This document shows, piece by piece, positions 16,797-31,941 of a DNA stretch of 34,602 nt. The DNA is from Thermoplasmata archaeon. Lineage in GTDB: Archaea; Thermoplasmatota; E2; UBA202; JdFR-43. The notes below the pieces were generated by a model, which saw only the letters and a program-made list of their open reading frames with translations, was not told the origin of the DNA and ran no database searches. The stretch is from contig JAGGZK010000037.1 of the NCBI GenBank assembly GCA_021162065.1, forward strand, positions 1 through 34,602, written 5' to 3'. Position 1 is the first letter of the stretch; each line of letters begins with the position of its first letter. A program made the translations under genes and the position numbers.

Positions 16797-19700
16797 ATGA
16801 GAAAGGTAGATGCATTACTGGTGGGCGCAGCACTTTTGATGGTATTGTTTCTCAACACATATTTCAACCTCACATCTGGGGTAGCAATAAACGAGGATGG
16901 CAAACACCTGGAGGATAAGTTCTATCTCGCAGGTCCTGACCCCTATTACAACATGCGCCTGGTCAACACCACCCTCACCACCGGAAAATATCCTTTTATG
17001 GGTGGAGCTCATGGGGAAAATGATCCCCTCCTCAACTACCCGCTGACCGGCTCCGGTCACAGACCGCCCCTTTTCAACATGATGGCCGTCACCTTCGGCA
17101 GTTTTCTTTCTCTTTTCATGGGCGAGGTAGATGGTGTTGGGTATGCCATGCAGTTTCTCCCGGCCCTATATGGAGCCATGCTTGTTATTCCTGTTTATCT
17201 CATCGCCTCCATGCTCTTCGGCAGGAAGGCAGGCATAATAGCAGCATGGATTGTGCCTCTTCTGCCAGTTCATCTTGCCTCGGGACACGGCTCATCCTAC
17301 GCCCTCTTCGACCATGACTCTTTCATTCTTATGCTCACCTCCTTTGCCCTGGCATTTCTCATGATGAGCCTGAAGGAGGAGGATAAGAAAAAGTCCAGCC
17401 TTTATGCCGCCCTTTCCGGAGTGTTTATAGCCGGCATAGGGATGACATGGGTTGCCTCCCACTACATCTATGCCATAATAGCCGTCTTTGCCATTCTTCA
17501 GATGATTGTCGACATAGTGGCGAAGAAAATAAATGCGGATGTGATTAGAAAGACACTCATAGCCATGTTCACCGGATACATTATTGCATTTCCGATTTTC
17601 TGGGTGAGAGCAGGGTTCGATCCCACCGTGCATGTTGTAATTCTACTCGGTGTTGCCCTGTTTGGTGTGATATACCTATATCTTGGAAAAAAGAATATGC
17701 CATGGATTCTCTCCATCCCTGCTCTTTTTGCTGTTGCAGGCGTTGTTTTAACCTTCCTCTACTTCATAAGAAACTCCACTGCACCATGGGCAAAGGCATT
17801 TGTGAGCGTGGCGAACATAATTTTTGGGAGTGGAATATATGGCAAGAAGGTTTCTTTGACAATCGCAGAGGCATCCACCTTCGACATAAGCAAGATAATG
17901 ATGTCCTTCGGACCAGCCATATTCCTGCTCGGATGGCTCGGATTCTTCCTTCTCCTTTACCGCTACTACAAGAAGGGGTTAAAGAGCTATCAGATGGTGG
18001 CCATAGCGTGGTTCATAATCGAGGTGTGGCTGCTCTCCATAGCAGGTCGTTTCCTGAATGACATGGTGCCCTTGATGGCAATACTTGCATCCTTCCCCCT
18101 GGTTATTTTCATAAACAAAATCGACTTTGCGAAGATGGTCAAAACTCTCAAGGGAGTTGGAGGAGGTTTCTACGGAATAAAGAAGGCGGTGAAGACAAGA
18201 CATGTGGCAGGAGCTCTGCTCATTGCCATCTTCATAATATTTCCCAACGGATGGCTGGCTGTCGATGCCTCCATACCTTCTACCATGAAAAACAAATTTG
18301 ATACGGACAAGGTTGGGGCCTTTGGGCTATCCGTTTCAACGGAACAGTACTGGCAGGACGCATTTCAGTGGCTTAGGGGGCAGACAGGAAGCATGAACGA
18401 CAGCGAAAAACCGGCCTTCCTCTCATGGTGGGACTATGGTTTCTACTGCGTTGCCATCTCCCACAACCCCACGGTGGCGGATAACTTCCAGGAGGGCATA
18501 CCTGCTGCTGCCAACTTTCACACTTCAGAAGGCGAAACGGAGGCAATAACTGTGATGATTACCCGCCTGGTGGAGGGAGATATGGCGCAGCATGGGGGGA
18601 AGGTAAGTGATGCGGTGAGGAATGCATTTGAAAAATATCTCGGCAACTCCACGGCGGATATCATTCAGATAATGGAAGACCCGACGAAGTATAAAAACAC
18701 CTCCTACGGCACTCTAATAGGGGAGAAATATGGAGGAAAAAGATACAGGGTGACTGTGGAGGGAGCGAGATATCATGATGCAACCAAGTTTCTGATGAGC
18801 AAACTCGATGAGGATAAGATGGTAATGCTTTACAGGGAAATACAGAATGTTACTGGAAAAAGCATAAGATATTATGGAGTTGAGGGATATGACATTAACA
18901 TCTTCAACGTTTTCACCTTCTTGGCTGATAAGGGCTCATATGGTTATGATACCACCGAGGATGATTATTTCAAACTCTGGTACATATCTGAGAAGACCGG
19001 CAAAAAATTCACTCCCGATGAGGTAAGAAATCTTACCGAAAGTATGACGCAGCAGGACATAAGAGATATCTATGGAACATTTAAACCCTATGTGGAGAGA
19101 AAGGACAAGTTCTATCAGAGCATGGTTTACAGGGTGTATATAGGGCCTGCTCCAAAGCAGATATTCGAGAATCTTTCCAGGAGCGGACTACTTCCCTTCT
19201 GGACGGATAACCAGAATAATCCTCTGGGAGGAGAGGGAAATTATTACTACTATCCAACCGCCTATCTTAAACATTTTGTGATACAGTATTTATCGCCTGT
19301 AAATGATGAGAAAAAGCTGTATTTCACACGTGCCAGTTTATGCGCAGGGATGCCCGCCGTGGTGATAGCCAAATATTATGAGGGGGCAAAGATAGAGGGT
19401 GTGGTGGAAAGCGATGGAAAGCCCATGAAGGATGTCGTGGTTATTGTTAGAGATGATTTTCATCAGACCATAAAGATGGGTTATGGCGGACAGACGCTGG
19501 AAAGGACCATAGAAAAGATACCGCATGATGTGACCACCACCGATGAGGATGGAAGATTCAGTGTGATAGTTCCTGCGGGAAATATAACCTTGTCCTTCTA
19601 TTCGGGAAGTGTTCTCATAAAGGAGATAACCTTCAACGGCACAGGCGTCTTTGCGCCCATAACTGAGGAGGAGGCGACAAGAACGGCTGCATGGACACGG

Positions 19701-20303
19701 GATATAGGGACGGTAAAAATAGAAAAGGGCTCTGTAAAGGGAATAGTGTTCTGGGATAAGGATGCGGATGGCCAGTACAACGCCAGCGTGGATGAGCCTG
19801 TTAAGGCGGAGGTAAGAATAGGCGATAATCAGGTGAGCACCACATCCAATGGAAGGTATGAGGTGAAGAATCTTCTTCCGGATACCTATACAGCCAGTGC
19901 GGTGAAGAGTGGCTATGATGCAAGGAGAGCCAATGTGAATGTGGAGCCGGGCGAGACAGTCTGGCACAACATATCTATGACGCCTTCCAAGGTGGATGTG
20001 GAAGGAAAGGTATGGTATGACAGAAATGGAAATGGAAAGATGGATGACAACGAGATACTCCAGGGAGCGAGTGTGAAGTTCACCCTCATAAATGCCTTGG
20101 ATAAGAATGCAAGAAACAGTTCCACCACTTCAGATGCCAACGGAACCTATTCCCTCCAGTTATTCCCGTCAACATACAAGATAAGTGTGAAGTATGTGGA
20201 GACAGTGGGCAATGAAACCATCTCGTATACCTATGAAGGCACCATGGACATAAAGATTGGAGACACCAAAAAGATAAAGGATATAAAGGTAGCCAGGGAT
20301 TAA
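16797..20303 (+). CDS. aglB: Oligosaccharyltransferase AglB/STT3 with C-terminal surface-type beta domains
   Basis: This 1168-residue protein transfers lipid-linked glycans to Asn of exported proteins. A first TM helix (about 4-22) is followed by an external loop with GPDPYYNMR (Asp 48, expected metal ligand), then about a dozen more TM helices up to about 495. An acidic FDHDS motif sits in an early loop. The STT3 signature WWDYG is at 544-548. The catalytic fold seems to end near 860. Three extra beta-sandwich domains follow: a carboxypeptidase-regulatory-like domain (about 864-960) and two SdrD/CnaB-like ones (about 980-1060 and 1068-1168). The latter two carry Ca-loop-like sequences DKDADG and DRNGNGKMDDNE. 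Archaeal AglB is commonly 850-1000 residues. Confidence 0.93.
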   Translation: MRKVDALLVGAALLMVLFLNTYFNLTSGVAINEDGKHLEDKFYLAGPDPYYNMRLVNTTLTTGKYPFMGGAHGENDPLLNYPLTGSGHRPPLFNMMAVTFGSFLSLFMGEVDGVGYAMQFLPALYGAMLVIPVYLIASMLFGRKAGIIAAWIVPLLPVHLASGHGSSYALFDHDSFILMLTSFALAFLMMSLKEEDKKKSSLYAALSGVFIAGIGMTWVASHYIYAIIAVFAILQMIVDIVAKKINADVIRKTLIAMFTGYIIAFPIFWVRAGFDPTVHVVILLGVALFGVIYLYLGKKNMPWILSIPALFAVAGVVLTFLYFIRNSTAPWAKAFVSVANIIFGSGIYGKKVSLTIAEASTFDISKIMMSFGPAIFLLGWLGFFLLLYRYYKKGLKSYQMVAIAWFIIEVWLLSIAGRFLNDMVPLMAILASFPLVIFINKIDFAKMVKTLKGVGGGFYGIKKAVKTRHVAGALLIAIFIIFPNGWLAVDASIPSTMKNKFDTDKVGAFGLSVSTEQYWQDAFQWLRGQTGSMNDSEKPAFLSWWDYGFYCVAISHNPTVADNFQEGIPAAANFHTSEGETEAITVMITRLVEGDMAQHGGKVSDAVRNAFEKYLGNSTADIIQIMEDPTKYKNTSYGTLIGEKYGGKRYRVTVEGARYHDATKFLMSKLDEDKMVMLYREIQNVTGKSIRYYGVEGYDINIFNVFTFLADKGSYGYDTTEDDYFKLWYISEKTGKKFTPDEVRNLTESMTQQDIRDIYGTFKPYVERKDKFYQSMVYRVYIGPAPKQIFENLSRSGLLPFWTDNQNNPLGGEGNYYYYPTAYLKHFVIQYLSPVNDEKKLYFTRASLCAGMPAVVIAKYYEGAKIEGVVESDGKPMKDVVVIVRDDFHQTIKMGYGGQTLERTIEKIPHDVTTTDEDGRFSVIVPAGNITLSFYSGSVLIKEITFNGTGVFAPITEEEATRTAAWTRDIGTVKIEKGSVKGIVFWDKDADGQYNASVDEPVKAEVRIGDNQVSTTSNGRYEVKNLLPDTYTASAVKSGYDARRANVNVEPGETVWHNISMTPSKVDVEGKVWYDRNGNGKMDDNEILQGASVKFTLINALDKNARNSSTTSDANGTYSLQLFPSTYKISVKYVETVGNETISYTYEGTMDIKIGDTKKIKDIKVARD

Positions 20304-25170: not shown

Positions 25171-25190
25171 AAGGAAAACAATAAGTGCAT

Positions 25191-26384
25191 ATGATTTCAA
25201 AATCGGAGAAGGGGATAGCAGTTATTATCGCACTTCTTATTGCCATTTCCTGGAATGTCACGGCGGATGGCGTTCCTCCAGTGGCTGATTTCACCTACTC
25301 TGTAAATGCTTACAATGTCACCTTTAATGCATCCCTTTCCCATGATGCCGATGGCATCATAGTAAACTATACCTGGGACTTTGGAGATGGAAGCGTTGGT
25401 TATGGAATGGTGGTGAATCATTCCTATGCGGTGGAGGGCATATACACGGTTAATCTCACCGTAAAGGATAACCAGTCCATGGAGAATGTGACGTCTGCTC
25501 AGGTTATAATAGATGTTACCCCTCCTGTTTCTCATATGGTAACCCTTCCCTCTTCTCCAAATGGAGCGGAGGGATGGTATGTGACAGAGTTGCAATTTTG
25601 GTTCAATGCCTCGGACAATTTTTCCGGGGTGAAGAATATACTTTACAGAATCAACGATGGAAACTGGACAACTTTTGACCCCAATGTTTCTATTAATAAG
25701 GAGGGAATCTACAACATATCCTACTATGCCATTGATGCATATGGAAATGAGGAGGAGATGCATAACACAACGCTGAAGATGGATTTAAAACCACCCTCTA
25801 CTCTTTTCAACACCTCAAAAAATGCAAGCGATGGATGGTATTCTGGAGAGGTAGAAATAAAACTTATGCCCTATGATAGCATGTCGGGAGTTAAGACGCT
25901 CTACTATCGCCTGGATGATGGGGTTTATGCAGAATATGAAGGCAGCATAAGTGTGGGAGAAGGTTTCCATGTCCTGGAATATTTTGCTGTGGACAATGCT
26001 GGCAATGCGGAGGAGCTGGTAAGAAAGGAGATAAATGTTGACTCCACTCCGCCCTCCGTTGATATAACCCCCTATAATGGAATTTACTTTTTCGGAAGAA
26101 AGATAATCTCCTCGGATACCACCATAGTGGTGGGCAACATAACAGTGGAAGCAATGGTGAGTGATGTCATATCAGGTGTGAAGGAGGCAAAGTTTTACGT
26201 AGACGGCGAGTTCAAGGGAAAGGATTCTGTTCCGCCCTATCAGTGGCTCTGGGATGATTTTTCCTTGGGAAGTCATGAAATAAAGGTGGTGGCCTATGAT
26301 AACGCTGGCAACAAGGGAGAAAAGGAGATTACGGTGCTTTTCATAAATCCAAAAATCTCCAATCAGATTTCAGTCAATGAGTAG
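25191..26384 (+). CDS. Secreted PKD-domain and Ig-like repeat protein
   Basis: This 397-residue protein is predicted to be exported. A signal peptide (hydrophobic core about 9-21) probably ends near residue 26. A PKD domain follows (about 28-108) with the hallmark WDFGDGS at 62-68. Next come two similar repeats of about 85 residues (about 110-197 and 198-287), each opening near a GWY motif and containing SGVK and YRxxDG/NDG motifs, like OmpL47-type or Y_Y_Y-like beta domains. A third Ig-like unit (about 290-390) follows. Many N-x-S/T sequons fit glycosylation by AglB. No C-terminal TM helix or sorting signal is seen, so it is either released or bound through partners. Confidence 0.8.
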   Translation: MISKSEKGIAVIIALLIAISWNVTADGVPPVADFTYSVNAYNVTFNASLSHDADGIIVNYTWDFGDGSVGYGMVVNHSYAVEGIYTVNLTVKDNQSMENVTSAQVIIDVTPPVSHMVTLPSSPNGAEGWYVTELQFWFNASDNFSGVKNILYRINDGNWTTFDPNVSINKEGIYNISYYAIDAYGNEEEMHNTTLKMDLKPPSTLFNTSKNASDGWYSGEVEIKLMPYDSMSGVKTLYYRLDDGVYAEYEGSISVGEGFHVLEYFAVDNAGNAEELVRKEINVDSTPPSVDITPYNGIYFFGRKIISSDTTIVVGNITVEAMVSDVISGVKEAKFYVDGEFKGKDSVPPYQWLWDDFSLGSHEIKVVAYDNAGNKGEKEITVLFINPKISNQISVNE

Positions 26385-27411
26385 GCGGCTTTTCCAAGGC
26401 CCACCTTCTCCGCCTCTTTTATCTGTATTGTTCCATCTATTCCGTGTATATCCATGAATACATCCTTTCCATACTCCCTGCACACCATATCGTAGCATGC
26501 CCTGTCTATAGCCACCGCATCTCTGGATGAAAGGATGCCCATATCGTTGACCACCGGCTTTCCAGCAAAGGAACAGCAATCGCATCTTGGAGTTATGTCC
26601 ATCAAAAAATTCAGGAAAGCAACTTTTCCATCAAATTTTTTGGCAGCTGCTGCGGCAGCCATGGCCACCCTCTGCTGAAATTTTTTCCACATTTCTTCTG
26701 AGAGAGAAAAGCATCCCTGCTCACACAGCACCGTGCATGCCCACATCCCCTGCATTTTTCATAATCAATCCCTATTTTTCCATTCTCTTCAAAGATGGCA
26801 TCTGCGGGGCAGAACTGGAGACACTCCAAGCAGAGTATGCATTTGCTATCATCATGAAGGGGTTTGCTCACCTCATGCTGCCATAGTTTGCCGGCCCTGC
26901 TGCAGCATCCCATTCCCAGATTTTTTATGGCCCCTCCAAAGCCAGCCATTCCATGCCCTTTGAAATGGCTGAGGACAATCATGCAATCTGCTTCATATAT
27001 TGCCCTTGCAATGGCTATCCTCTCTCCATTCATTTCCACATGGACTTCTTCATTGCCTCTCAACCCATCTGCTATTATGATGGGGCAGTTCATGGAGGAG
27101 ATGCTAAAGCCGTTCATGGCTGCGGTCATTAAATAATCGATGGCGTTTCCTCTGTGCCCTCCGTATAATGTCGTTGTGTCCGTAAGGAAGGGCTTGCCTT
27201 TTCGCTCCTTCACAAAATCCACAATCATTCTCACAAAAATGGGACGGATGTGGCCAGTATTCCCTCTCTCTCCCATATGAAGTTTTATGGCAACCACATC
27301 TTCTCTCTCAATCACATCCACCCTGTCCATGAGTTTTTTCACAGCAAGATGAAGCGCATCCTTTGAATATGGAGTGGAGGCAGACTTAAAATATACAGGA
27401 CTCTGCGTCAT
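26363..27411 (-). pseudogene. DUF362 iron-sulfur protein gene interrupted by a one-base frameshift
   Basis: Two overlapping frames together encode one DUF362 protein with ferredoxin domain. The first part starts at 27411 and reads through ILCLECLQFCP (Cys 191, 194, 197, 201, first 4Fe-4S set) to EKCRGCG, ending at Gly 224 (26740-26742). In that frame the sequence then turns into unrelated residues and stops at 26611. The natural continuation, ACTVLCEQGCFSL and onward, lies in the minus-1 frame and ends at 26363. Adding a single G at the GGG of 26740-26742 restores CRGCGACTVLC, the second 4Fe-4S set, and a protein of about 349 residues. It is the last gene of the radical SAM unit, starting 10 bases after the preceding stop. 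It could be a true mutation or a sequencing error. Confidence 0.85.
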
Positions 27412-27421
27412 GAGTCCATAT

Positions 27422-28765
27422 CTAAATTTCGTTTATATTTCTATCCGGATTTTTGCTGGGGATGGAATGGAGATGCGTGAAGATATCTCTTCTTGCCTTC
27501 ATGAAATGTGAATAGCCAATTTTTGATGAGAGGAGGTGGTGGGCAAGGGCCATCCTTGTGATAAAACCAAATCTTTTCCCAAGCAATCTTTTCAGTATTT
27601 TTTCAGCCGAGAAAAATTCTCTGGTTATTTTTCTCACTCCCTCATATAACTCCGCTGGCGATAGAAGGCGGGGTTTATGAACAACATGATAGAAATCGTA
27701 TTTGCTCCAGTCTCTGGTTAGAATCCTGTTTTCTCTTTTCATTTCATCAAAAAGAGGTGTGCCGGGAAGGGGTGTGAGTATGTTCACCCCTACGGAGTCG
27801 ATATTCCATTCCTGAAAAAATTTGAGGGTGGTATCAAATATATCCGGAGGGTCATAATCGAATCCAAACACAAAGGAGCCGATGAGGGCCATACCATGCT
27901 CGTTGACCTTCCTTATAACTTTCCCATATTCTTCAACTCTGTTGGATTTTTTATTTACGTTTATCATGGATTCCTGGGAAACACTTTCAAAACCGACAGC
28001 CCACGCCACACATCCAGCATCATAGGCGAGGGAAAGCAGCTCATCATCCCTCGCAAGCACATTTGCATTTCCGAAACATGCAAATCTTTTTCCCGTCTCC
28101 TTTATCCGTCTGAATAACTCTTTGGTGTATTCGATATCGATGGTGAGGGATGAATCGTAGAATACGAATCCTCTATTTTTCATGGATTCTATTTCCTGGA
28201 CAACAGCATCAATGGATTTTTTCCTGTACTTCCCCATGGGGGTGCTGGCGATGGCGCAGAAGTCGCATTTGTTCACACATCCTCTGCTCGCCTCCACATA
28301 TCCGAATAGAGCCCCATTATTACTTATGGGAGACGCAATTCTTTTGGAGGTGCCCCTGTAGAAATCCCTCAGTTTTCCCTTTTCCACATCTTTTATTACC
28401 TGCGGCCACACCTCCTCCGCCTCTCCTATAACAACAGCATCAGCATGCTGCTTTGCCTCCTCCGGCATGGCAGTTGGATGGTATCCGCCGAGAACCACCT
28501 TTACACCTCTTGCCCTAAACTCATCCGCAATTTTGTAGGCGCGGGGTGCTGTGGCTGTCATGGAGGATATGCCAACGAGGTCGTAATCTCCGCTGAATCG
28601 AATGTGGCGATGGTTCTCATTTATAAGAGTAACATCATGCTTTTCCGGTGTGCATGCGGCAATCTGGCGGAGGGTGAGTGGTTCCCACATGGTGAATTTC
28701 ATAAAGATTCTGTCATAGAGGGTGACTCTCTCCTTTATGGACGGCATGACAAGCAGTATCTTCAT
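27422..28765 (-). CDS. B12-binding-type radical SAM protein (COG1032-like), downstream paralogue
   Basis: This 447-residue protein has an N-terminal Rossmann-like B12-binding domain (about 1-135), with DLVGISSMTATAPRAYKIAD and GGYHPTAMPEEA. The cobalamin-ligand motif DxHxxG is absent, as in many relatives. The radical SAM core carries C-x3-C-x2-C at Cys 163, 167 and 170 (SRGCVNKCDFC). A DUF4070-like C-terminal part has PLPGTPLFDEM and DWSKYDFYHVV. Such enzymes modify unreactive carbons in lipids or cofactors; archaeal tetraether-ring synthases (Grs) belong to the same broad group. Substrate here is unknown. GGAGGAG a few bases before the ATG at 28765 fixes the start, which lies 53 bases inside the upstream paralogue. 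Confidence 0.87.
   Translation of the reverse strand: MKILLVMPSIKERVTLYDRIFMKFTMWEPLTLRQIAACTPEKHDVTLINENHRHIRFSGDYDLVGISSMTATAPRAYKIADEFRARGVKVVLGGYHPTAMPEEAKQHADAVVIGEAEEVWPQVIKDVEKGKLRDFYRGTSKRIASPISNNGALFGYVEASRGCVNKCDFCAIASTPMGKYRKKSIDAVVQEIESMKNRGFVFYDSSLTIDIEYTKELFRRIKETGKRFACFGNANVLARDDELLSLAYDAGCVAWAVGFESVSQESMINVNKKSNRVEEYGKVIRKVNEHGMALIGSFVFGFDYDPPDIFDTTLKFFQEWNIDSVGVNILTPLPGTPLFDEMKRENRILTRDWSKYDFYHVVHKPRLLSPAELYEGVRKITREFFSAEKILKRLLGKRFGFITRMALAHHLLSSKIGYSHFMKARRDIFTHLHSIPSKNPDRNINEI
28464..28504. repeat. Identical 41-base segment shared by the two radical SAM genes, copy 1
   Basis: This segment is base-for-base identical to 29779-29819, including third codon positions. It lies in the middle of a 37-residue stretch that is identical in both proteins (residues 86-122 here), while the flanking sequence is clearly diverged. 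Confidence 0.8.
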
Positions 28766-30071
28766 ATTTTTCTCCTCCAGTTTCATAATTTCTATCAAAA
28801 TCCGTAAACATCTTTACGGCGAGGTTTGCGGCAAGAACAAAAATTTTGTTTCCCATGTGGGGTGTGGAAAAGAAGGATTTAAGAATTCTGTGGGGTGAAA
28901 AGAATTTTCTATAGAGTTTTTTGATCCCCTTCTCCAGCTCCCGCATTTCCATATTTTTGGGCTTAAAAACGACGTGATTTAAATCGTATCTGCTCCAGTC
29001 AAGAGATCCTATTCTCTTCTCCTTCATGAACTTTTCAAAGATGGGTGTTCTTGGAAAGGGCGTAAGGATGTTGAATTCCGCCACCCTGATTCCCCACTCA
29101 TTCAGTTTTTCAAAGGTGGTATCAAAAACATCGGGAGTATCGCTGTCAAAACCAAAAATGAAGGATGCCCACACCTCCATTCCCTCCCTCTCTATTTTTT
29201 CCACCATTCCGGGAATTCTATCTATTCTGTTACCTCCTTTTCCTATCTCCTCGTTTATGGTTTTCTGGGATACACTTTCCAGCCCCACCATCCATGCTAT
29301 GCATCCCGCCTTCTTTGCAAGATGAAGAAACTCCTCGTCCCTGGAAAGAAGAGCAGCATTTCCGAAGGCAATCCATTTTTTCTTTATTTTTCTCTCGATC
29401 ATTTTTCTGAATAATTTTTTTGTGTAGATCGGATTTATGGTGAGGGAGGCATCATGAAACCAGAATATTCTGCCCGGCAATTTTTCAATCTCCTCCACCA
29501 CATCCCCTATCCTCCTTTTTCTGTGGATTGTATCCCCAAATCCCGTCATCTGGCAGAATTCACATTTGTAAGGGCACCCCCTGCTGGTCTGGACGGCGGA
29601 AAATAGAGAGCCATGCTTTACTATCCCTCTCCTTGCCGGAGGTATTTTCTCTCCTTGGACCTTTTTCCAGCCATAGAAGGGCTTTAACTTTCCCTTTTCC
29701 GCATCTTTTATTGCCTGCGGCCACACCTCCTCCGCCTCGCCTATGACGACGGCATCCGCATGTTGCTTTGCCTCCTCTGGCATGGCAGTTGGATGGTATC
29801 CGCCGAGAACCACCTTTACTCCTCTTTCCCTGAAAGCATCTGCTATCTCATAGGCGCGATATGCATCTTTTGTAAAAGCGGAGATGGCCACCAGATCACA
29901 TTCTATGTTTAAATCAACCTTTTCATACCACTCATTCACAGCCATTATTTCATGCTGACTGGGAGTGCATGCGGCGATCTGTTCCAGTGCAAGTGAGGGA
30001 ATAAAAAATCTTGCTGCTATCCGGCCATAGCGACCTGCATCCCTGTCCGCCTGCACAAGCAATATCCTCAT
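28713..30071 (-). CDS. B12-binding-type radical SAM protein (COG1032-like), upstream paralogue
   Basis: This 452-residue protein has the same plan as its downstream neighbour: a B12-binding-like domain without the DxHxxG motif (about 1-135), radical SAM cysteines at 166, 170 and 173 (SRGCPYKCEFC), and a DUF4070-like end with PFPRTPIFEKFM and DWSRYDLNHVV. A strong Shine-Dalgarno, AAAGGAGGATGA, precedes the ATG at 30071 and rejects a start 24 bases further up. It is the first gene of a three-gene unit with the second radical SAM gene and the DUF362 gene. Its final 53 bases overlap the next gene. The promoter carries a palindromic operator, so expression is probably repressible. Reaction and substrate are unknown. 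Confidence 0.88.
   Translation of the reverse strand: MRILLVQADRDAGRYGRIAARFFIPSLALEQIAACTPSQHEIMAVNEWYEKVDLNIECDLVAISAFTKDAYRAYEIADAFRERGVKVVLGGYHPTAMPEEAKQHADAVVIGEAEEVWPQAIKDAEKGKLKPFYGWKKVQGEKIPPARRGIVKHGSLFSAVQTSRGCPYKCEFCQMTGFGDTIHRKRRIGDVVEEIEKLPGRIFWFHDASLTINPIYTKKLFRKMIERKIKKKWIAFGNAALLSRDEEFLHLAKKAGCIAWMVGLESVSQKTINEEIGKGGNRIDRIPGMVEKIEREGMEVWASFIFGFDSDTPDVFDTTFEKLNEWGIRVAEFNILTPFPRTPIFEKFMKEKRIGSLDWSRYDLNHVVFKPKNMEMRELEKGIKKLYRKFFSPHRILKSFFSTPHMGNKIFVLAANLAVKMFTDFDRNYETGGEKYEDTACHAVHKGESHPL
29779..29819. repeat. Identical 41-base segment shared by the two radical SAM genes, copy 2
   Basis: Exact copy of 28464-28504, in the same orientation and the same place in the paralogous gene (within residues 83-119 of the upstream protein). 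The length of silent-site identity suggests recent exchange between the genes. Confidence 0.8.
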
Positions 30072-30083
30072 TTCATCCTCCTT

Positions 30084-30109
30084 TTGAACGTTCAAATAAC
30101 GAACGTTAA
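30084..30109 (-). promoter_or_regulatory. Palindromic operator of the radical SAM operon
   Basis: A perfect 12-base palindrome, TTGAACGTTCAA, occupies 30084-30095. A second copy of its core, GAACGTT, is at 30101-30107, spaced 15 bases from the first. The two together also form an inverted repeat, AACGTTC and GAACGTT separated by seven bases. The sites cover the predicted transcription start and reach the TATA box, a position where a bound protein would block initiation. The regulator is not identifiable within the window. Confidence 0.7.
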
Positions 30110-30115
30110 TATATT
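30108..30115 (-). promoter_or_regulatory. TATA box of the radical SAM operon
   Basis: AATATATT is centred about 40 bases before the ATG at 30071. Transcription would start near 30086, inside the palindrome, giving a leader of about 15 bases that contains the Shine-Dalgarno. Confidence 0.6.
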
Positions 30116-30124
30116 GGATGTTGA

Positions 30125-30133
30125 TTTAAAAAC
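30125..30133 (+). promoter_or_regulatory. TATA-like element of the secreted amidotransferase-fold gene
   Basis: TTTAAAAAC lies about 30 bases before the ATG at 30158. It is only 16-17 bases from the operator half-site of the divergent operon, so shared control is possible. Confidence 0.4.
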
Positions 30134-30157
30134 TTTTCTAAAGGCATATTAAGGAAA

Positions 30158-31288
30158 ATGCCATGTTATTTCATGGCGAAGATTCTGCTTTTCGTTGTTT
30201 TGGCGGTGATGGCAATGCCAAATGTTATTTCTCTCATGCCTCCGGCAGAGAAAACCATAAGGGTGGCGATACTGGACTCTTTCATCCCGAGTTTTACCTC
30301 ACCTCCTGAGATGATGGAGATAATAGATAACTATACATGGGAAGCAGATGGGGCAAGATACACTTTCCAAGCCCGATGGCTCTCCGATGGAGACATATGT
30401 AGGGGAAAGTTGAAAGAATATGATGTGCTGGTTATCCCGGGTATAGGGAAGGAATTCTGGCGCATGAATGACAAAAATCTCAGCACATGGAAGAGAGAGA
30501 TAAGAAATTTTGTCGCCAGCGGAGGAGGATATTTTGGCACATGCGGTGGAGCCAATCTTGCAGGTATGGGACTACTTTCTCCTGCTGAGAGGGGATGGAA
30601 GCACTGGACGATGTGGGAATGGTTCATGAACAGGGCGGCGCTGGGAATTGCTCCAGTAAAATCCTATCAGGACATGGCGGATCCCTTTGCCTCCACCCTC
30701 CTATGGAAAAATCCTGCCAGGGTGGGCATTTCCGCCTACGTATGGTATAATCTTTCCATAGATGGTACGGGTATATGCCAGAACTGCCATGTCAATACAA
30801 CTCATCCTGTATTTGAGGGCTATGGGAGGAGCAGCAGAATAATAAGGTGGGTTGCAGGTCCTGCCCTCATTCCATATGGCAATGTGAGCATAATGGTAAC
30901 ATACCCTGAAGAAAATATCTCAGGAAAGAATGGAAATGAGAGCACCACCATACATGCATGGAGATTTACTCCCTTTTCCCCACCTTTCACCGATTTCTGG
31001 AGCATGGGGGAGATAATAGAAACCCGTATTGCCGGAAAGCCGGCTGCCATATCATGCAATTTTGGGGAGGGAAGGGTGGTTATATTCGGAAATCATCCAG
31101 AGCATCCTGTATGGCGTGGGGGGCAAATATATGAGGTGGATGACTCTTTCAATCATCTATTTTTTAAGGGGCTTTTTAGATGGAGAAACAGGGATATGCT
31201 TCCTCCCTCTTATAACTGGTGGATTGTGAGGAGAAGCGTTGCATGGGTGGCTGGGCTGGATAATAATATGCTCCCTCCCATTGAATGA
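30158..31288 (+). CDS. Secreted class I glutamine-amidotransferase-fold protein (BPL_N-like)
   Basis: This 376-residue protein has an N-terminal signal peptide (hydrophobic core about 8-25). The mature part starts with RVAILDSFI and has the flavodoxin-like order of class I glutamine amidotransferase domains: DVLVIPGIGKEFW at about 89-101, then GGGYFGTCGGANLAG at 122-136. Cys 129 sits in the nucleophile elbow. This resembles the biotin-protein-ligase N-terminal domain family (PF09825), whose exported members have no proven activity. A later GEGRVVIFGNHPEHP (about 328-342) carries histidines and a glutamate that could complete a catalytic set. It is divergent from the radical SAM operon. Start could also be the ATG at 30173. 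Confidence 0.72.
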   Translation: MPCYFMAKILLFVVLAVMAMPNVISLMPPAEKTIRVAILDSFIPSFTSPPEMMEIIDNYTWEADGARYTFQARWLSDGDICRGKLKEYDVLVIPGIGKEFWRMNDKNLSTWKREIRNFVASGGGYFGTCGGANLAGMGLLSPAERGWKHWTMWEWFMNRAALGIAPVKSYQDMADPFASTLLWKNPARVGISAYVWYNLSIDGTGICQNCHVNTTHPVFEGYGRSSRIIRWVAGPALIPYGNVSIMVTYPEENISGKNGNESTTIHAWRFTPFSPPFTDFWSMGEIIETRIAGKPAAISCNFGEGRVVIFGNHPEHPVWRGGQIYEVDDSFNHLFFKGLFRWRNRDMLPPSYNWWIVRRSVAWVAGLDNNMLPPIE

Positions 31289-31302
31289 TATGCAGCATGC
31301 TT

Positions 31303-31310
31303 TTTATATG
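31303..31310 (+). promoter_or_regulatory. TATA-like element of the METTL5-like methyltransferase gene
   Basis: TTTATATG is centred about 20-22 bases before the GTG at 31327. The spacing is slightly short, but it suits a leaderless GTG start better than the ATG at 31285, which lies upstream of the box. Confidence 0.45.
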
Positions 31311-31326
31311 CTCGGATAATAAAATT

Positions 31327-31941
31327 GTGAAGAAGAAACTGGAAATGATGTTGCAGAAAATAGAGCAGCCATCCAGCATAAAGGCGGAGATGGAGCAGTA
31401 TCCAACGCCTGCCAGCATAGCAGCAGATGTGCTTTGGCATGCATATCAGAATGGCGATATCAAAGATAAAGTTGTTTTAGATGCCGGATGTGGCACAGGC
31501 ATATTTGCCATAGGGGCAGCGTTGCTGAATGCAGGGAAAGTTGTGGCGGTGGATCTGGATGAGGAACTGATCAAGAAAGCAGAGGAGGAGGCGAGTAAGT
31601 TTGGCGTTGATGTGGAGTTTGTGGTGGCAAACATTGAAGATTTTGAAACACGGGTGGATACCGTTATAATGAACCCTCCCTTTGGCGCCCAGTTTTCAAA
31701 CAGAGGGGCAGATTCCCTTTTTGTCAGAAAAGCCATGGAGGTGGGGGATGTCATCTATTCCCTTCATCTTGAAAAATCATTGCATTTCATAAAAAATCTG
31801 CTTAAAAAAGAGGGATGGGGAATAGGAGGTGAGAAAAAATACAGATTTCCCATAAAAGCATCCCTTCATTTCCACGAAAAGAGGGTGATGTATTATGATG
31901 TTGTGTTAATACACGCCTTCAGAACGCCTCCACGATTATGA
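31327..31941 (+). CDS. METTL5-like N6-adenine rRNA methyltransferase
   Basis: This 204-residue protein is a class I SAM-dependent methyltransferase. The N-terminal KKKLEMMLQ and MEQYPTPASIAADVL (22-36) match the METTL5 family, whose human member methylates 18S rRNA adenine. SAM motif I is LDAGCGTG at 51-58, the acidic end of strand two is AVDLDEE, and the catalytic NPPF is at 116-119. The GTG at 31327 is chosen because the family begins there. An ATG at 31285 overlaps the previous stop (ATGA) but adds an unmatched 14 residues. The eukaryotic enzyme needs a TRMT112 partner, which is not in this window. The end overlaps the convergent DUF92 gene by 23 bases. Confidence 0.83.
   Translation: MKKKLEMMLQKIEQPSSIKAEMEQYPTPASIAADVLWHAYQNGDIKDKVVLDAGCGTGIFAIGAALLNAGKVVAVDLDEELIKKAEEEASKFGVDVEFVVANIEDFETRVDTVIMNPPFGAQFSNRGADSLFVRKAMEVGDVIYSLHLEKSLHFIKNLLKKEGWGIGGEKKYRFPIKASLHFHEKRVMYYDVVLIHAFRTPPRL

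Follow-up and report, generated by a model that had tools for sequence, protein, structure and literature searches.

Modification of archaeal lipids by radical S-adenosylmethionine (SAM) enzymes is a known theme, for which few enzymes have been identified. Tes, Grs, Cds and Gms are radical SAM enzymes that act on archaeal membrane lipids, and we know of no dedicated repressor and operator controlling lipid enzymes of this kind. Tetraether ring formation has been described as proposed cobalamin-dependent radical SAM chemistry, and the large cobalamin-type radical SAM class has ring- and lipid-forming members (PMC13142503). Here we analyze a locus in a 34,602-nucleotide stretch of a Thermoplasmata archaeon genome (assembly GCA_021162065.1, contig JAGGZK010000037.1, positions 1 to 34,602; hereafter the window), where two B12-domain radical SAM genes, rSAMa and rSAMb, are divergent from a gene for an exported amidase-like protein, GD. 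We find that this module is part of an undescribed, locally regulated regulon of one order of uncultured Thermoplasmatota archaea, and that one conserved DNA switch probably controls the radical SAM enzymes and the secreted protein through one small DNA-binding protein. Gene content, synteny, operator, regulator co-occurrence, further targets and intact catalytic motifs were all established by sequence comparison.

The closest described relatives of rSAMa and rSAMb by NCBIfam score are BchE, HpnJ, HpnR and the ladderane-associated TIGR04072, a group that shares their B12-Rossmann plus radical SAM architecture and includes ring-chemistry and lipid-modification enzymes. The two proteins differ from this group in their scores, which do not exceed 130 bits where the curated cut-offs are 360-650, and porphyrin, hopanoid and ladderane genes are absent at the locus studied. 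AprD4 (PDB 6FD2) and MgmA (PDB 9CCB) resemble rSAMa in structure (template modelling (TM) scores of 0.74 and 0.63-0.68) and are its best PDB profile matches, but they share only 17-18% identity with it, rSAMa lies far under their NCBIfam equivalog cut-offs, and they come from other organisms and contexts. GD resembles BPL_N and class I glutamine amidotransferase (GATase)-like proteins in its PF09825 domain, nucleophile elbow and Cys-His-Glu triad; unlike them, it is exported and lacks a biotin ligase or synthetase domain. The candidate regulator resembles HVO_A0261-type archaeal winged-helix regulators through an N-terminal domain that scores just over the PF25213 cut-off, and differs in having no Pfam-named sensor domain and in being linked to a different kind of target.

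A conserved operator at radical SAM promoters

A sequence-only reading of the window had described three minus-strand genes, overlapping or within 10 bases of each other, under one promoter with a palindromic operator and across an 86-base gap from a secreted protein. Our analysis confirms the genes and finds them more strongly linked than that reading could show. In the window, rSAMb overlaps the 3' end of rSAMa by ~53 bases, a DUF362 gene starts 10 bases downstream of rSAMb, and the divergent gap spans 30072-30157. Two details did not survive, namely the intactness of the DUF362 gene and the choice of operator unit. The main features are as follows.

30087..30107, no strand: core operator AACGTTC-N7-GAACGTT over the predicted rSAMa transcription start (same dyad and TATA distance in 18 genomes)
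30074..30120, no strand: extended dyad, the core operator plus flanking arms CATCC ... GGATG (repeat search; outer C and G invariant in 18 sites)
30124..30132, minus strand: TATA box of rSAMa, TTTTTAAAT (promoter comparison)
28713..30071, minus strand: rSAMa, radical SAM enzyme with a B12-binding domain, leading the operator-controlled transcript
27422..28765, minus strand: rSAMb, second B12-binding/radical SAM enzyme (Pfam domains, 49% identity to rSAMa, tree)
26363..27411, minus strand: DUF362 protein carrying two 4Fe-4S motifs, with a frameshift near 26740 (PF04015 on both fragments)
30158..31288, plus strand: GD, exported class-I-GATase/BPL_N-like protein with triad C129-H313-E315 (PF09825, fold, triad)

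The operator proposed earlier, the perfect 14-mer palindrome TTTGAACGTTCAAA, spans only the left part of the core dyad, is single-copy in the genome and is not conserved as such; we replaced it with the 21-base dyad, and with that change the palindromic operator proved real and conserved at a fixed TATA distance. Across 18 genomes of the order we found either AACGTTC-N7-GAACGTT or a site close to it (matching at 11-14 of 14 positions), and in all 18 readable radical SAM promoters the operator starts 24 or 25 bases past the first TATA base. Outer arms of the form CATYCA...TGRATG, with several invariant positions, stretch it to ~47 bases. As a random control, 24/3000 240-base stretches of the same loci reached at least 11 matches, some of these being true sites. 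A combined TATA and operator pattern gave a single site in this genome, and a genome scan with the bare dyad returned mostly chance matches. The operator is absent from radical SAM paralogues that lie outside the module, among them that on contig C20 of this genome; one further gene in G004 (L288, 13/14) is the exception. The rSAMa TATA box is near-palindromic and is possibly shared with GD. Archaeal promoter spacing places the transcription start at the operator's distance from TATA; the operator would therefore occupy a classical repressor-site position, from which we infer that the module is inducible. Known RNA families gave no match at the locus, and scans for sigma-70 promoters and terminators, whose models are not apt for archaea, stayed at chance level there.

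The same dyad extends the regulon from 18 radical SAM promoters to three methyltransferase promoters. The TATA and operator pattern matched a methyltransferase gene in G013 and G016, and a protein search found a third in G010, whose promoter has the dyad with all positions matching (14/14), so that the operator is present in 3/3 genomes of the order that have this membrane-type methyltransferase. The enzyme has a hydrophobic C-terminus, and its best NCBIfam models (cyclopropane fatty acid synthase, geranyl-diphosphate C-methyltransferase and UbiE) all score far under cut-off. A homologue in family f4 (G032:C21) is divergent from a radical SAM pair. Separately, an operon of a SPASM radical SAM gene and a methyltransferase gene (G003:C43:808-2092, L222) has a TATA box and one half-site, and may be an extra target or a chance match.

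The neighborhood is conserved beyond this genome. GD orthologues occur in nine genomes including this one (56-68% identity), and in 9/9 only a short gap separates GD from a divergently transcribed radical SAM gene; the slot opposite GD holds rSAMa, rSAMb or both, depending on the genome, and in other genomes rSAMb lies directly behind the operator as first gene. Some genomes have the radical SAM gene and operator but no GD (e.g. G002, G007, G013-G016). Across relatives, 8 of ~58 module genes are disrupted, against 0/67 neighboring or paralogous control genes (Fisher p = 0.0016; totals tallied by hand). Six of the disruptions are frame breaks, most of them at single-base runs, and two are stops in G012; they are located in G012, G014, G004, G016, G020, G001 and the window at 26740 (loci L092, L101, L096, L109, L099, L299). 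Their restriction to the module suggests that it is conditionally dispensable; alternatively, metagenome assembly errors may lie behind them.

A winged-helix protein as candidate operator binder

The candidate regulator is a 180-residue tandem winged-helix protein, PF25213-like, whose N-terminal domain scores 36.7 against a PF25213 cut-off of 35. It is found once each in exactly the 18 operator genomes among the 22 of the order; the search did not find it in G003, G005, G018 and G021. G018 also lacks the module radical SAM gene, and the radical SAM genes of G003 and G005 reach a contig end, so that the operator region is not visible. The regulator frame is broken in G001. In 7/18 genomes the regulator lies within one gene of GD or a radical SAM gene: it adjoins GD in five (G006, G012, G017, G019, G020), is one gene away from the radical SAM gene in G002, and in G014 is the immediate divergent neighbor of rSAMa, the two being separated by the operator. 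This genome's copy (G000:C37:29984-30511) lies away from the window, flanked by GIY-YIG/DUF123, PurM and UbiA genes, just as it is beside GD in G006; the simplest reading of these kept neighbors is that the regulator was left behind when an ancestral locus split. Judging from co-occurrence and linkage, the winged-helix protein is quite likely the operator binder, and co-occurrence within one order is in itself no proof of binding. In family f10, a 36% homologue of the regulator (G051:C141:1552-2052, L264) is encoded two genes from a radical SAM paralogue, with no matching operator seen near it.

Two radical SAM clades outside named families

rSAMa and rSAMb are 49% identical over 404 residues, and in both PF02310 (B12-binding) and PF04055 (radical SAM) pass curated cut-offs. 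All three cysteines of the CX3CX2C motif (CPYKCEFC) are invariant across 42 homologues. The rSAMb start at ATG 28765 agrees with its homologues (5' end ~28765). An AlphaFold 2 model of rSAMa (predicted local distance difference test score (pLDDT) of 91) has AprD4 and MgmA as its nearest solved folds, and PDB profile searches concur. Domains, fold and motif thus identify both proteins, at the sequence level, as B12-domain radical SAM enzymes of the BchE/HpnJ/AprD4 type; cobalamin use is predicted, a B12-like fold alone being no proof of cobalamin binding.

The top NCBIfam match is BchE, at 129.5 bits for rSAMa and 115.9 for rSAMb against a cut-off of 481. The HpnJ model gives 106.5 bits against 578, and the remaining named models (HpnR, ladderane-type, AprD4, MgmA) score lower. 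With the best score at 130 of 481 bits, no named function applies. The Tes model NF045702 is absent from the complete rSAMa match list at E 1e-3 and is not among the best 25 of 28 matches of rSAMb. We rejected tetraether synthase as the identity of either protein, since the genome also holds a separate Tes-like gene (G000:C12:9413-10861; 437 bits, cut-off 450).

In a tree of class members only, which includes no Grs, Cds or Gms reference sequences, rSAMa orthologues form one clade (Shimodaira-Hasegawa-like approximate likelihood ratio test (SH-aLRT) support 98) and rSAMb orthologues another (97), both nested in a class-wide radiation. These are separate old clades, which rejects a recent tandem duplication as the origin of the pair. 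In the sequence-only reading, a clade distinct from known functions would support a new system. The class-only tree and sub-cut-off NCBIfam scores do place both proteins in clades distinct from named families; neither revealed orthology to a known, unrelated enzyme. Among 194 phylum genomes drawn, 52 had a strong radical SAM match, only three of them outside the class, and class genomes often carry 5-20 such enzymes each.

An exported amidase-like protein and an accessory DUF362 gene

The N-terminus of GD is a hydrophobic, signal-peptide-like helix, and its nucleophile elbow reads GTCGGAN, in agreement with the earlier description of a secreted protein with a cysteine nucleophile elbow. An alternative ATG start lies at 30173. 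GD matches PF09825 at 33.2 bits (cut-off 24.2), and C129, H313 and E315 are invariant in 29 homologues. Its AlphaFold 2 model (pLDDT 86) resembles ThuA-like and GATase proteins (TM ~0.5-0.65 on the target side), which together with the conserved triad places it in the class I GATase/BPL_N-like group; a search by sequence against solved structures gave no match. GD is a single-domain protein with no conserved synthetase gene adjoining, and neither pairing nor fusion with an ammonia-using synthetase was found. GD orthologues of families f1 and f2 share an extra invariant CxxC (C207, C210).

The DUF362 gene had been taken for an intact part of the module. In the window it is instead split into open reading frames 26611-27411 and 26363-26755, with the break between the second and third cysteines of the second 4Fe-4S motif: the first fragment reads KCRGCG and then runs out of frame, where orthologues continue KCKGCGACTVLC. 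No single open frame in the window thus holds the domain with both 4Fe-4S motifs. Either a true lesion or, as this genome is metagenome-derived, a homopolymer error may account for the break. Among relatives, 10/11 orthologues are open over the full ~347 residues, and the one in G012 has an in-frame stop. DUF362 is present in 12/17 family genomes and adjoins a radical SAM gene in 8/12. Genus g8 and family f2 lack it yet keep the radical SAM gene and operator, and because of this we regard DUF362 as a loose accessory. These counts and the broken copy in the window led us to reject it as an obligatory partner. An exported PKD/OmpL47-type protein is encoded convergently with it (window 25185-26384), and in most relatives a homologue occupies the same position next to DUF362, including those in which DUF362 no longer belongs to the module.

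Proposed mechanism and alternatives

We consider a locally regulated modification regulon the best explanation of the whole, with a probability of about 0.5. The winged-helix protein would bind AACGTTC-N7-GAACGTT over the radical SAM transcription start and keep the operon off until a signal arrives. One or two cobalamin-type radical SAM enzymes would then carry out C-H chemistry on a substrate that is associated with the membrane and most likely an isoprenoid, helped by the co-regulated lipid-type methyltransferase where present; DUF362, where present, may feed electrons. Outside the membrane, the Cys-His-Glu triad of exported GD would hydrolyze or transfer an amide. Repression and the roles of GD and DUF362 are deductions from position, motifs and gene context. 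The target is most likely a membrane or cell-surface molecule. A lipid or isoprenoid substrate, which we rate a little short of an even chance, is suggested by several features: a methyltransferase of lipid type is co-regulated, the partner GD is exported, UbiA is encoded a few genes from the module in G006 and G012, and paralogues in class relatives cluster with UbiA, PaaK-like ligase and methyltransferase genes; a Grs-like or other lipid role for rSAMa and rSAMb is plausible. The fully specified pathway, repressor-controlled and lineage-specific, in which the radical SAM enzymes and GD install an undescribed modification on a membrane lipid or envelope isoprenoid, is doubtful as a complete account. 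The earlier proposal of an inducible, undescribed lipid or envelope modification system thus gains from operator control, synteny and distinct clades, which strengthen the case for an undescribed regulated system, and loses its DUF362 component; its chemistry is still conjectural.

Several observations weigh against this regulon as we describe it. The window's own neighbors include no lipid enzymes. The UbiA and PaaK linkage belongs to paralogues rather than to the module as it stands in its core genomes, apart from the UbiA genes in G006 and G012. Since rSAMa and rSAMb replace each other, the substrate may also vary among genomes. The regulator is unlinked to the module in 11/18 genomes, which would fit an operator bound by another transcription factor, with the winged-helix gene a mere lineage marker whose co-occurrence inside one order stems from shared descent. 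We consider this rather unlikely, given that the regulator gene lies next to or near the module in seven genomes and faces rSAMa across the operator in G014, that G018 has neither it nor the module radical SAM gene, and that the family f10 homologue is again only two genes away from a radical SAM gene.

The main rival to a lipid modification regulon, and an unlikely one, is a soluble or quinone-like secondary metabolite, with the radical SAM enzymes acting on an aromatic or coenzyme A-activated scaffold and GD trimming or amidating the exported product. In class relatives, the clusters around paralogues do include genes for PaaK-like adenylating ligases, UbiA prenyltransferases, methyltransferases and GNAT proteins, the C20 paralogue of this genome adjoins a LuxE-type ligase and a transglutaminase-like gene, and the closest solved folds include the antibiotic-pathway enzymes AprD4, CysS and TokK; the regulon, however, has few biosynthetic genes, and the module in operator genomes lacks a ligase, carrier or prenyltransferase. 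Quite improbable is a protein or peptide target, either a specific protein or a product resembling ribosomally synthesized and post-translationally modified peptides (RiPPs), processed by GD outside the cell. MgmA, which methylates a glutamine of methyl-coenzyme M reductase, and TsrM are among the nearest structures, and GD is exported with a protease-like triad, but the enzymes lack SPASM and peptide-recognition domains, their scores against RiPP models stay far under cut-off, and no precursor peptide was noticed at the locus, where small open reading frames were not searched systematically. That four genes merely happen to be neighbors and the palindrome is noise has a negligible chance: DUF362 is movable and broken here, and various module genes are disrupted in single genomes, but synteny and a fixed-spacing operator kept across many genera already contradict it.

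The regulon supplies its own candidates for study: two radical SAM clades, an exported amidase-like protein, a lipid-type methyltransferase and a 180-residue regulator. Beyond these, it draws attention to a large and so far unnamed radiation of radical SAM enzymes, mostly limited to one archaeal class, in which, if the proposed regulon is correct, each enzyme perhaps has its own chemistry.

Neighboring genes and paralogue clusters

One further gene follows GD in the window.

31285..31941, plus strand: small methyltransferase, overlapping GD by 4 bases

It occupies the slot that the winged-helix regulator holds in several relatives and is probably outside the module.

In families f4 and f10, radical SAM paralogues reach up to ~20 per genome and are clustered (L112-L117, L249-L263), and GD-like genes join the UbiA, PaaK-like ligase, methyltransferase and GNAT genes seen around paralogues in class relatives. 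These clusters also contain a nicotianamine-synthase-like methyltransferase (F216) and an unnamed 435-residue family, their GD-like genes lack a signal peptide, and they constitute an undescribed biosynthetic theme of the class. The C20 paralogue of this genome belongs to a family-conserved group of LuxE-type ligase, transglutaminase-like, Mut7-C and radical SAM genes without an operator (G000:C20:1381-6121, L110; L282-L287). Elsewhere in the window, 16797-20303 encodes a 1168-residue STT3/AglB oligosaccharyltransferase-like protein that looks like an unusual fusion, its C-terminus carrying CarboxypepD_reg and SdrD_B-like domains.

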